Of a stretch of DNA of 64,000 nt, positions 14,892 through 32,027 are shown piece by piece. The DNA is taken from positions 62,001 to 126,000 of the forward strand of contig RDZG01000079.1 of assembly GCA_004293915.1 (NCBI GenBank), in the 5' to 3' direction. Numbering within the stretch: position 1 is the first letter of the stretch; each line of letters opens with the position of its first letter. Source of the DNA: Bacteroidota bacterium. GTDB taxonomy: Bacteria; Bacteroidota; Bacteroidia; Cytophagales; UBA9547. Below the pieces are notes generated by a model. That model saw only the letters and a list, made by a program, of their open reading frames with translations, did no database searches and was not told where the DNA came from. The position numbers were made by a program, and so were the translations under genes.

Positions 14892-16559
14892 TTAAATCAA
14901 CTTTCTGTATTTCACTCTTTTAGGTTCAATATTACCGAGTCTTTTACGTTTGTTTTCTTCGTAATCTTGATAATTTCCTTCGAACCAAACCACTTGCGAA
15001 TCGCCTTCAAAAGCCAAAATATGTGTGGCAACTCTATCTAAAAACCAACGATCATGGGAAATAATTACGGCACAACCCGCAAAATTTTCTAGTGCTTCTT
15101 CCAAAGCACGAATGGCATTTACATCCAAATCATTGGTTGGCTCATCTAATAAAATCAAATTTGCTGCCTGTTTTATAGACATTGCCAAATGCACACGGTT
15201 GCGTTCGCCTCCAGAAAGTACACCTACTTTTTTTTCTTGATCAGAACCTGAAAAATTGAATTTACTTACAAAAGCCCTCGAATTGATTTGAACCGACCCC
15301 AAAAGCATGGTTTCTGTGCCACCAGATATACTTTCAAAAACAGATTTATCAGGATTTAGATTATCGTGTTCTTGATTTACATACGAAATTTCAACCGTTT
15401 CTCCTACTCCAAAAGTACCGGCTAGCGGTTTTAATTCGCCAGTAATAAGTTTGAATAAAGTAGTTTTACCCGCTCCATTCGGACCAATAATTCCAACAAT
15501 ACCGTTTTGTGGTAAATTGAAATTCAAGTTATCATACAAAAGTCTGTCGCCAAAACCCATTTTCACACCTGTGGCTTCTATAACTTTTGAACCCAAACGT
15601 TTGCCGCTCGGTATAAAAAGTTCGAGTTTTTGTTCTTTTTCTTTCAAATCCTCACCCACCATTTTATCATAGGCTTGCAAACGAGCTTTAGATTTTGCTT
15701 GTCGAGCTTTTGGAGCCATACGTACCCATTCCAACTCACGTTCCAAAGTTTTTTGGCGTTTCGATTCGGTTTTTTCTTCCTGCGAAAGTCTATTTTTCTT
15801 TTGTTCTAACCATGATGAGTAATTACCTTTCCATGGAATACCCTCTCCCCTATCCAATTCTAAAATCCAACCTGCCACATTATCTAAGAAATAACGATCA
15901 TGGGTTACAGCAATTACAGTACCTTTATATTGTTGCAAATGTTGCTCTAGCCACTGAACCGATTCGGCATCTAAGTGATTGGTAGGCTCATCCAAGAGCA
16001 AAACATCGGGTTCTTTTAACAACAAACGGCACATAGCAACTCTGCGTTTTTCGCCTCCAGAAAGGTCTTTTACCATTGCCTCCTCTGGCGGACAACGCAA
16101 TGCGTCCATTGCTTTTGCTAATTTTGTATCTAATTCCCAAGCATCGGCAGCATCGAGTTTTTCTTGCACGGCAGCTTGGCGAGCAATGAGTTTATCCATT
16201 TGGTCGTCTGTCATTTCTTCGCCAAATTTCAAATTTATTTCTTCAAACTTTTTAAGTAAATCAACAACATCTTGCATTCCTTCTTCCACAATTTCTCTTA
16301 CTGTTTTGGTAGGATCGAGTTTTGGCTCCTGCTCCAAATAACCAACAGTATAGCCTTGCGAAAAAACCACATTGCCTAAAAATTCTTTATCTACACCTGC
16401 AATAATTTTTAAAAGAGAAGATTTTCCAGAACCATTTAAACCTAAAATACCGATTTTAGCTCCATAAAAAAACGAGAGGTAAATATCTTTGAGAACTTGT
16501 TTTTTGGGAGGATATACTTTTCCAACCCCTGCCATTGAGAATATAATTTGTTCGGACAT
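14892..16559 (-). CDS. ettA: energy-dependent translational throttle protein EttA (ABC-F)
   Basis: A 555-aa soluble twin-ATPase of the ABC-F family that binds the ribosomal E site and gates entry into elongation according to the ATP/ADP ratio. Two ABC cassettes: Walker A GLNGSGKSS and GPNGAGKTT, signatures LSGGEKRRVAMC and LSGGERNRVHLA, Walker B LLLDEPTNHLDAES and ILLDEPTNDLD. Between them is the charged linker LERELEWVRMAPKARQAKSKARL, characteristic of EttA rather than Uup or other ABC-F types, and the length agrees. The start is ATG (MSEQIIFSMAGVGKVYPP). No membrane segment, so it is not a transporter. Confidence 0.96.
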   Translation of the reverse strand: MSEQIIFSMAGVGKVYPPKKQVLKDIYLSFFYGAKIGILGLNGSGKSSLLKIIAGVDKEFLGNVVFSQGYTVGYLEQEPKLDPTKTVREIVEEGMQDVVDLLKKFEEINLKFGEEMTDDQMDKLIARQAAVQEKLDAADAWELDTKLAKAMDALRCPPEEAMVKDLSGGEKRRVAMCRLLLKEPDVLLLDEPTNHLDAESVQWLEQHLQQYKGTVIAVTHDRYFLDNVAGWILELDRGEGIPWKGNYSSWLEQKKNRLSQEEKTESKRQKTLERELEWVRMAPKARQAKSKARLQAYDKMVGEDLKEKEQKLELFIPSGKRLGSKVIEATGVKMGFGDRLLYDNLNFNLPQNGIVGIIGPNGAGKTTLFKLITGELKPLAGTFGVGETVEISYVNQEHDNLNPDKSVFESISGGTETMLLGSVQINSRAFVSKFNFSGSDQEKKVGVLSGGERNRVHLAMSIKQAANLILLDEPTNDLDVNAIRALEEALENFAGCAVIISHDRWFLDRVATHILAFEGDSQVVWFEGNYQDYEENKRKRLGNIEPKRVKYRKLI

Positions 16560-17118
16560 CGAGAACGTTTATTTTAATTTTATGTGCAAAAATAAACGAA
16601 TTCTTAATAGTAATTCAAATAGCGAAAAATAAAAAAGAAGATTTTAAACTTATGATGTAACTACTCACCTAGTGCAAAGCTTGTACCAAAAACTATAAAG
16701 ACATCTCGCTCTTCGGTATTTATAATTCCGAAGCCTTATGATAGTTCTTTGAACCGTATTACAAATGTAGCTTGTTCGGATTAAAAATATAGAATAACTG
16801 GAGTGTAGTTGGAAACTACAATTCATTTGCTAATCCGTAGAGCCACTGCGTGAACTCTACGGAATAGTGGATTCGCCAAACTTTTAGATGATTACATTCT
16901 ACGCTGAACAGAGCGTAGCCACTTTTGTTTTTTTGCCCCCTTTTTTTCTTTTTTTTATTTGTTTTTTGTTTGTTGAAAACAAGGCAGGAACTGCTTGTTT
17001 TGTGAAAAATGATATGGACTTTTTTTGTTTTATAGCAAATCTAAGATTTGCATACACCTTGACGAAGTCTTGAGACTTCGCCAAACTTTTAGATGATTAC
17101 ATTCTACGCTGAACAGAG
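16560..17118. repeat. non-coding island with an array of compact hairpins
   Basis: A 559-bp stretch without a credible gene. It holds several short, near-perfect inverted repeats with different stem sequences: CTTCGG/CCGAAG (16711-16733), TGTAGTT with loop GGA (16804-16820), TCCGTAGAG/CTCTACGGA (16834-16863), AAAACAAGGCAG with loop GAA (16976-17001, one mismatch), GCAAATCT with a 1-nt loop (17035-17051) and CGAAGTCT with loop TG (17063-17080). A weakly conserved segment at about 16757-16806 (GTATTACAAAT then GGATTAAAAAT) recurs near 18385-18446. A T/C-rich tract occupies 16923-16970. Probably REP/BIME-like remains connected with the transposase remnant at 17.7-18.1 kb. Confidence 0.6.
16872..16914 (+). 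repeat. 43-bp direct repeat, first copy
   Basis: Identical over 43 bp to 17077-17119; it starts TTCGCCAAACTTTTAGATGA and ends GCTGAACAGAGC. The copies are 205 bp apart start to start. Confidence 0.9.
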
Positions 17119-17119
17119 C
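17077..17119 (+). repeat. 43-bp direct repeat, second copy
   Basis: Identical to 16872-16914. Its right edge touches the stop codon of the minus-strand gene ending at 17119, and its left edge lies in the CGAAGTCT hairpin. Confidence 0.9.
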
Positions 17120-17601
17120 TACCTGATTTTTTTAATTCCTCCAAAATAACCTTTATTAGGATCACTTTTGTCCATACTAACATCAAATCCATTTTCTTTG
17201 AGATGATTAAATAATTCATCCAATGTTTTATTTCCCATATTAAAACAAAAATATTTATTTCTAAAATCCCAGAATTTTCTTTTTGATCCAACTTTTTTTA
17301 ATCTAATATAATTAAATGTGTATATTCTAGTTAAGTTTTCTATATATATATCAAAAGAATTATCGAAGATTTTTTTTCCCCATCTCCAAAACCTATAGGA
17401 ATTCTTTACTTCTAATACTCCTTCATTTAAAACAAAGTAGTTAAAGAAAAAGCATGAATATATGTAAGTACAAAATAATGAAATTAATGACGCTTTTAAG
17501 CAACTAAAGATGTCTTTCCCGTTTATCATTTGCAAAATAGATAAGAAAGGAATCAGTAGATGTACAAAAAATTCAGGTTTAATATTTCCTCTAAATATCA
17601 T
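17119..17601 (-). CDS. hypothetical membrane protein with possible PH-like C-terminal domain
   Basis: A 160-aa protein that I do not recognise. It has two hydrophobic stretches (about residues 10-24 and 32-58, rich in Phe/Leu/Cys) followed by a soluble part with YRFWRWGKKIFDNSFDIYIENLTRIY, which has the look of the bacterial PH-like domains that follow two membrane helices in many small Bacteroidota proteins. The C-terminus LDELFNHLKENGFDV is helical. Its stop codon coincides with the edge of the 43-bp repeat, so the end of the gene could have been altered by that rearrangement. ATG start; no close neighbour on the same strand. Confidence 0.6.
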   Translation of the reverse strand: MIFRGNIKPEFFVHLLIPFLSILQMINGKDIFSCLKASLISLFCTYIYSCFFFNYFVLNEGVLEVKNSYRFWRWGKKIFDNSFDIYIENLTRIYTFNYIRLKKVGSKRKFWDFRNKYFCFNMGNKTLDELFNHLKENGFDVSMDKSDPNKGYFGGIKKIR

Positions 17602-17691
17602 ATAAGTTAGAATGGACTAACCTCATTAAAATCACTATACATACCTTCTACGCCACTTATAACAATGTTAGCGTCACCTAAAATACTTCTA

Positions 17692-18114
17692 CACCGTGGT
17701 CTGTTGCACACAGAACACTTTTACTGTTTTTTTCTAATAAAACAAAAATACACTAATTTTGTAGAATATATTTCTATGGATAATGATATTTTTAAACCGA
17801 GAAGAAATTCAAGAATGAATCTTGAAAATGTTTATTTTTGGACAGACACAATCAAAGATTAGAAACATCTTTTAAAGCAAGATAAATACAAAGAATTGAT
17901 TATCGAATGTTTGAAAGATTTGACATTAAAGAATCTCATAAAAGTCTATGGTTTTGTAATAATGCCAAATCATATTCATATTATTTGGGAACTTTTAACT
18001 ATAAATGGCAAAGAAATGCCTCATGCAAGTTTTAATAAGCAAACTGCCCATTTAATCACAAAGGATTGGATTTTGATTGTTGAAAGTGTGTTCTGTGTGC
18101 CACAGACCACGGTG
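17692..18114 (+). mobile_element. remnant of a REP-associated tyrosine transposase unit with flanking inverted REP-like repeats
   Basis: The dead transposase gene is bracketed by an inverted repeat of about 30 bp: ACCGTGGTCTGTTGCACACA at the left (from 17692) and the complement of this at the right (about 18084-18114, TGTGTGCCACAGACCACGGT) with few mismatches. Each arm contains its own small palindrome (TCTGTG/CACAGA around TGC), as REP sequences do. This is the arrangement known for RAYT genes, which mobilise REP hairpins. Confidence 0.7.
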
Positions 18115-18129
18115 CATAATCACAAATGA
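17776..18129 (+). pseudogene. REP-associated tyrosine transposase (IS200-like Y1 transposase), inactivated
   Basis: The reading frame from ATG at 17776 gives MDNDIFKPRRNSRMNLENVY and, after one in-frame TAG at 17860-17862, continues KHLLKQDKYKELIIECLK and GFVIMPNHIHIIWELL, which contains the HxH metal-binding motif of HUH single-strand transposases, then NGKEMPHASFNKQTAHLI. Family members normally have Trp where the stop is (TGG to TAG explains it). The C-terminal half, including the expected catalytic-region helix and Tyr context, is missing; the frame runs out into the right REP-like repeat. TAATTTTG at 17754-17761 could be an old promoter -7 element. Confidence 0.82.
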
Positions 18130-18552
18130 TTTGAAAACGAGTTGTCTTGTCCTGAAATAGGTTTACACAAAAGTAGTGTAAAATATGGAAGAAAAAACGG
18201 AGAGATTTGAAGTAAATAGATATAGTTTAGAATTCCTTGCTGTTCGTGATTTGTAATCACGAACTCTTATCATAGGTTTTTCAAACCGTATTTCAAATCT
18301 ACTATTTTCGGATAGTAAATCCTACGATACAGATTCCAGATTGCAAATCTGGAATAGCGGGACTAGTGACTAGTGGGGAAACTGTATTACAAATTTAGCT
18401 TGATTGGATTAAAAATCCTATAATAGGGATTAGAATAGCTGGAGTTTATTAATTTGATGCACAAGCGGACGCTTGCGCCAGTGGGAATGTAATTTTATAG
18501 AATCAGATAGGTTTTAGATAATTCAATTTTAGACATACTGTATCGTTCAGAT

Positions 18553-18583
18553 TTGTTAAACAATAAAAAAGTTTCTATTTTTG
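18553..18583 (+). promoter_or_regulatory. possible promoter of the 915-aa T9SS protein
   Basis: TTG at 18553-18555 and TATTTTTG at 18576-18583 with a 20-bp spacer match the Bacteroidota consensus; this would leave a leader of about 190 nt before the TTG start at 18783. Confidence 0.45.
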
Positions 18584-18702
18584 CTCATATTAGTTCGGTT
18601 TTTACACAAATTTTTGCATCAAAAATCAGCATAATCAAACTTTGTAATTGTTTTTCAAAAAATTATAAAAAAGAAACATTATTAAACTATACTAAATGCT
18701 TA

Positions 18703-31715: not shown

Positions 31716-31796
31716 ATGCCTACTGCAACACCGCTCAAAACTGTTATCTAATCAACCTAACCGTATCGTAAAAAAATAGCTAGTATATACTAATAA

Positions 31797-32006
31797 TCTA
31801 AAGCTATATACTATTTAGATATAGCTATATACTATTAACCTAAAGCTAAATACTATTAACGTATAGCTATATACTATTAACGTATAGCTATACACTATCA
31901 ACGTATAGCTATATACTATTAACCTAAAGCTAAATACTATTAACGTATAGCTATATACTATTAACGTATAGCTATATACTATTAACCTAAAGCTATATAC
32001 TATTAA
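31797..32006. repeat. 21-bp minisatellite, about ten units
   Basis: Ten head-to-tail 21-bp units. The common unit is CGTATAGCTATATACTATTA plus one A; the other type begins CCTAAAGCTAAA or CCTAAAGCTATA. Order of unit beginnings from left: TCTAAAG, GATATAG, CCTAAAG, CGTATAG x3, CCTAAAG, CGTATAG x2, CCTAAAG. The core TATAGCTATA is a perfect palindrome. As 21 is a multiple of three, the minus strand stays open as a 7-residue repeat, but this is a by-product of the tandem repeat. Confidence 0.92.
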
Positions 32007-32027
32007 CATATATAGCTACATATAAAA

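Follow-up and report, generated by a model that had tools for sequence, protein, structure and literature searches.

In Gammaproteobacteria, RAYT genes lie between inverted REPs; these coevolve with the RAYTs, and their palindromes are retained (Nunvar 2010, PMC2817692). For REPINs, it was proposed that the inverted doublet is what moves, and compensatory changes were noted (Bertels and Rainey 2011, PMC3116915). The Bacteroidetes RAYTs of subclass 2.6 are about 179-180 aa long and, in the part of the account on which we draw, are associated with no GT[AG]G foot and with weaker folds; manual inspection found 'atypical secondary structures' on either side of the gene and further copies elsewhere in the genome (Quentin 2018, PMC6006769). 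REP/RAYT biology is already known, and the present work is a detailed description of the Bacteroidota variant that was previously entered under that phrase in the same part of the account (PMC6006769).

The window, i.e., the whole 64,000-nt stretch of Bacteroidota DNA that was analysed, carries a dense hairpin cluster at 16704-17120. A preliminary description had claimed an array of at least six hairpins here; all those it named were found, together with a seventh. Its statement that the loops are mostly of 1-3 nt holds for the GGA, GAA, A, and TG loops, but several others span 6-12 nt. The cluster has seven non-overlapping perfect hairpins with stems of at least 6 bp, compared with a mean of 0.59 and a maximum of 4 in 1000 dinucleotide shuffles, which bears out the excess over shuffled sequence on which that description depended. 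For stems of at least 7 and at least 8 bp the counts are six and four (shuffle means 0.19 and 0.06), and none of the 1000 shuffles equalled the cluster at any of the three stem lengths. Among 306 half-overlapping tiles of the window, none matched its counts for stems of at least 6 or 7 bp, and two equalled its count for stems of at least 8 bp. Units consist of a foot, hairpin 1, a short linker, and hairpin 2, and belong here to repeat families A, B, and F:

16708-16760, plus strand: left half of a family A unit, with foot GCT, hairpin 1 at 16711-16733, linker CCTTATGATA, and hairpin 2 at 16744-16754 (match to covariance model R1, alignment A4, and sequence)
16711-16733: hairpin CTTCGGtATT/AATtCCGAAG with one mismatch, hairpin 1 of the family A unit
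16778-16803, minus strand: decayed right half of the family A doublet, GGATTAAAAATATAGAATAACTGGAG (comparison of copies)
16802-16871, minus strand: reversed family B unit, with hairpin 2 at 16804-16820, linker at 16821-16833, hairpin 1 at 16834-16863, and foot ATAGTGG at 16865-16871 (match to model R2 at 16802-16869, DNA matches, and a match to the flank of the L160 RAYT)
16804-16820: hairpin TGTAGTT, loop GGA, hairpin 2 of the family B unit
16834-16863: hairpin TCCGTAGAG, 12-nt loop, hairpin 1 of the family B unit
16872-16914 and 17077-17119: two copies of a 43-bp exact direct repeat
16899-16918: hairpin CTACGCT/AGCGTAG, the seventh, beyond those named earlier, outside the units of families A, B, and F
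16976-17001: hairpin AAAACAAG(G)CAG/CTGCTTGTTTT, loop GAA, one bulged G, outside the units of families A, B, and F
17013-17080, minus strand: reversed family F unit, with tail TATGGACTTTTTTTGTTTTATA, hairpin 2 at 17035-17051, linker, and hairpin 1 at 17063-17080
17035-17051: hairpin GCAAATCT, loop A, hairpin 2 of the family F unit
17063-17080: hairpin CGAAGTCT, loop TG, hairpin 1 of the family F unit

The cluster is a mosaic of copies from at least three dispersed repeat families placed head to tail, not one element. Thirty-one matches to the region occur in its own genome, so the hairpins are copied repeats, and the perfect 43-bp direct repeat means that the cluster is partly plain duplication. 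The earlier view that ordinary repeat copies would have another appearance was not supported: the array contains copies of families A, B, and F with relatives elsewhere, and neighbouring stems are unrelated mainly because it mixes these families. In the family A unit, hairpin 2 reads GTTC/GAAC with one G lost and the linker is of the type TTATnATA; the right half is complete in the copies on contig C40. Against the region 5′ of a Pedobacter psychrophilus RAYT, family B, with linker ATTCATTTGCTAA, scored 70 (shuffle maximum 36); the linker there is nearly identical and the hairpin-2 stem different. On the 3′ side of this RAYT its score was not above shuffles. Family F scored 62 against the 5′ flank of a RAYT in a sister genome (G002:C70; shuffle maximum 44.5) and 68 against locus L051 (shuffle maximum 40.5).

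Covariance models R1 and R2 were derived from families A and B, respectively. Only the best 150 candidates per genome were scored, and the copy counts are therefore lower bounds: at least 20 matches for A and at least 30 for B in the own genome, with more in relatives. The draft assembly probably also breaks at repeats, making copy numbers underestimates. In G000, several repeat copies lie at or near contig ends (C84, C113, C114, C147, C2). The dispersed copies are often four-hairpin inverted doublets, like the inverted doublets of REPINs; at least 22 were present among the matches listed, all with hairpin 2 facing inward, and examples were folded. One of them lies in a region (18235-18520) with 14 matches in the own genome:

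18239-18358: family A-type four-hairpin inverted doublet (two opposed R1 matches; sequence)
18239-18292: left unit of this doublet, hairpin 1 GTTCGTGATT
18305-18358: right unit of this doublet, hairpin 1 ATTCCAGATT

The two halves of several A-type doublets carry unlike hairpin-1 stems. The unequal pair GTTCGTGATT / ATTCCAGATT recurs in the sister genome G002, and an A-type doublet in G003 has hairpin-1 stems CTTCCGAATT in one half and ATTCGACAAT in the other. Where hairpin-1 stems differ in this way (18239-18358 and the G003 copies), the halves lack the complementarity of the REPIN long hairpin. The halves of family B doublets have part of the end in common. At the RAYT, the family A hairpin-2 stem is GGATT upstream and GGTTC downstream, both on C84 and in the G006 relative, so the left-right difference is old. 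As in REPINs, inverted doublets are the likely mobile unit and compensatory changes occur (PMC3116915); unlike in REPINs, each half has two hairpins, and the stems of the halves may differ. A search for empty sites with joined flanks in G001 and G002 returned one-sided matches only; G002 is without a copy beside the gene end that bears the C127 copy, and the opposite flank lacks synteny. No direct orthologous comparison was possible upstream of ettA, because the neighbourhood there is a different one in G001 and G002 and contains no matching hairpins.

Pairing is maintained while stem letters change, as found by three tests. In family B, 84.9% of cells are paired across 28 copies found by DNA similarity, and there are 38 double-change cells (shuffles 12.6; slid partners no more than 15), a count that omits five long-loop copies, the right arm being aligned ambiguously. 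Family A has 24 double-change cells compared with 7.6 in shuffles and at most 7 with slid partners; the number of its pairs with double changes and the number of pair types were not above shuffles. Because kinship inflates the double-change counts in both families, the third test used separate loci: at 38 of them the unit 5′ of the RAYT was aligned by sequence with the unit 3′ of it, and 520 base pairs were compared. It gave 33 compensatory double changes, spread over 18 of the 38 loci, against 3.1 expected with independent arms; this excess is about tenfold, with some ascertainment remaining, as structure was used to detect the reference stems but not the partner copies. Non-pairing double changes numbered nine and single changes 55. 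The preliminary description had suggested that structure rather than sequence is kept, to be recognised by compensatory changes in the stems, and this agrees with what was found in families A and B and in the RAYT-flank units.

The same description had connected the array with a dead RAYT gene lying next to it:

17691-17718: left inverted repeat of the broken RAYT, ACACCGTGGTCTGTTGCACACAGAACAC (sequence)
17776-18130, plus strand: broken RAYT gene of another clade, with HuH motif PNHIH, an in-frame stop, and truncation (translation; NCBIfam)
18088-18114: right inverted repeat of the broken RAYT, GTGTTCTGTGTGCCACAGACCACGGTG (sequence)

This gene matches NCBIfam REP_Tyr_transpos only partially (24.9 bits), is closest to the C129-type RAYT (21 of 57 residues identical), and shows only short stretches of similarity to the RAYTs of family A and C23. 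With its C129-type affinity and a flanking inverted repeat of its own, it was rejected as the cognate of the array; the wider connection with RAYTs stands, in the form of strong linkage across the phylum. For family A the likely partner is the C84 RAYT of this genome; for B and F the likely partners are RAYTs observed in other genomes alone, no cognate having been found in the own genome at E<=1e-15. The C84 RAYT (193 aa) has a family A unit just 5′ of its start and a second, inverted one just 3′ of its end, and the C23 RAYT (182 aa) has the same layout with other stems. Both exceed the cut-offs for Pfam Y1_Tnp and NCBIfam REP_Tyr_transpos. Profile matches of the RAYT include E. coli TnpA-REP (4er8) and ISDra2-type chains (2xm3, 2xo6). 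Like IS200/IS605 elements, the system pairs a related Y1/HUH enzyme with hairpins near the ends; unlike in those elements, the ends are inverted copies of one unit, and the protein stays below the cut-off of 55 for NCBIfam IS200 NF033573 (33.2 and 21.3 bits). The motifs are NHLH, WE, and YIHLNP in C84 and IHVH, WR, and YIHKNP in C23. Several family members, e.g., L097, have the subclass 2.6 motifs NH[LIV]H, WQ, and YIH[QN]NP, and the L094 RAYT has them except for the M in NHMH. In the intact family A RAYT (L083, on C84), a stretch of 17 residues (ESRKEWLLKVLSFNDKI) is perfectly duplicated within the protein.

Of ten family genomes, eight contain RAYT relatives (up to 11 matches each), and many flanks of these relatives show the twin layout with differing stems. 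In a sample of 80 RAYT loci across Bacteroidota, a strict two-hairpin detector found the twin unit, as an inverted pair around the gene, in 32/79 upstream and 32/78 downstream flanks, while it was negative in more than half of individual flanks; distal windows gave 28/1330 (2%) and shuffles about 1%. The linkage to RAYT genes that had been proposed at the outset is thereby supported at the level of the phylum. Hairpin 1 is mostly 9-10 bp long (9 or 10 bp in 44 of 64 units), hairpin 2 mostly has a 5-8 bp stem and a 3-4-nt loop, the commonest loops are TGT and TGC, and the foot directly before hairpin 1 prefers G, T/C, T. Identity of hairpin-1 arms declines with RAYT identity, from 0.86 (RAYTs at least 70% identical) through 0.52 (55-70%) and 0.35 (45-55%) to 0.28 (below), and stems are near-random between distant RAYTs. 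This tracking fits coevolution; simple co-inheritance also predicts such a correlation.

As with canonical GTAG REPs, RAYT genes are delimited by inverted repeats, each RAYT has its own repeat, and the palindrome is kept (PMC2817692; Corneloup 2021, PMC8266576). The canonical REP, however, has one palindrome behind GT(A/G)G, whereas these elements have two hairpins and a GCT/GTT-type foot, and no GTAG consensus was found at the foot of the RAYT-flank units. On the foot they thus fall outside the canonical REP definition and fit subclass 2.6 as the consulted part of its description has it, sharing the RAYT size, the lack of GT[AG]G, structures at both flanks, and dispersed copies (PMC6006769). 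The two-hairpin architecture, covariation, doublets, and stem divergence measured here go beyond that part of the description (PMC6006769), although some of this architecture may already be drawn in the supplement or Figure 7 of Quentin 2018.

The cluster is very probably a mosaic of decayed non-autonomous REP-type elements from three or more families, every one of them most likely dispersed by a RAYT of its own, and the cognate RAYTs are most likely Y1/HUH single-strand-DNA transposases of Bacteroidota, similar to subclass 2.6. Such a RAYT would bind the folded single strand via the foot, the loops, and both hairpins, and would cut and rejoin it so that the doublet is moved or copied, as TnpA-REP does with REPs (PMC8266576). 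Stem letters could then drift provided that pairing stays and the cognate RAYT follows. A bolder proposal, which we put forward tentatively as possible rather than probable, is that the RAYTs of this clade recognise a shape made of two hairpins whose loops and spacing are constrained, that stem letters would serve as a changeable identity code with many RAYT-repeat pairs in one genome, and that the asymmetric four-hairpin doublet with distinguishable halves may be a distinct mobile unit. With the architecture defined, two covariance models available, and many enzyme-repeat pairs that have diverged, one can test directly whether a single-strand transposase responds to hairpin shape, to the loop, or to the stem letters, and in what way a palindrome alters both arms while staying paired.

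The pairwise changes could instead come from a mutational process rather than selection for recognition, with template switching during replication copying one arm onto the other, and palindromes persisting as they change; such switching was proposed to create and maintain hairpins, according to the portion of that work consulted (PMC8794818), and some pair positions indeed flip (U-A 14 to A-U 9; G-C to C-G) with few intermediates. We consider this unlikely as the explanation, as stem length, linker, foot, and loop are likewise constrained, G-U intermediates are present at other pairs, and template switching alone would not put units on both sides of RAYT genes, although it can act together with spread by RAYTs. 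Family B doublets also have the appearance of short elements bounded by inverted ends (CCACTAT...ATAGTGG), as would MITE-like elements of an ordinary DDE transposase whose hairpins are incidental to terminal inverted repeats. That origin is very improbable given that Y1/HUH genes are flanked by the identical kind of unit, that halves with different stems form no single long inverted repeat, and that covariation is confined to each hairpin.

A similarly slim chance attaches to host regulatory hairpins, either transcription terminators or RNA structures: the cluster is intergenic, beside gene ends and with T-runs nearby, but an Rfam search of 16500-18700 gave no match at E<=1, and multicopy families with a fixed two-hairpin layout tied to RAYTs speak against it. 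Termination may be a secondary role of the hairpins. Chance pairing in AT-rich DNA (window G+C 33%) has a negligible probability, with seven hairpins reached in none of the shuffles or tiles described above.

At 18460-18490, and at loci L046, L047, L048, and L049, a multicopy hairpin family CAAGCGGACGCTTGCGCCAGTG was seen, related units of which flank RAYTs of G002. A short hairpin family, GGCAGGTGTC..CACCTGACAC, occurs in many copies at L032, L033, and L038 and in other family genomes, spanning several genera and often lying beside family A. Between two family A copies at L026 (C40) lies a palindrome, GTCATTGCGAG...CTCGCAATGAC, which presumably resembles the CGTC-tagged repeats of other bacteria. 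AT-rich, near-tandem repeats, each about 21 nt long (AGCTATATACTATTAACGTAT type), make up a second hairpin-rich stretch of the window at 31780-32020; the 31.6-32.0 kb region was rejected as an instance of the architecture of the cluster, being AT-rich near-tandem DNA with a terminator-like hairpin and without the two-hairpin layout. At L029 (C66:57745), a family B unit sits at the end of a short ORF that weakly resembles a ParE-type toxin (14.7 bits, below cut-off) and was possibly cut short by the insertion. At L041 (C17:7189-7487), a coding fragment is present in duplicate, its copies alternating with two B half-units, an arrangement that suggests repeat-driven duplication.
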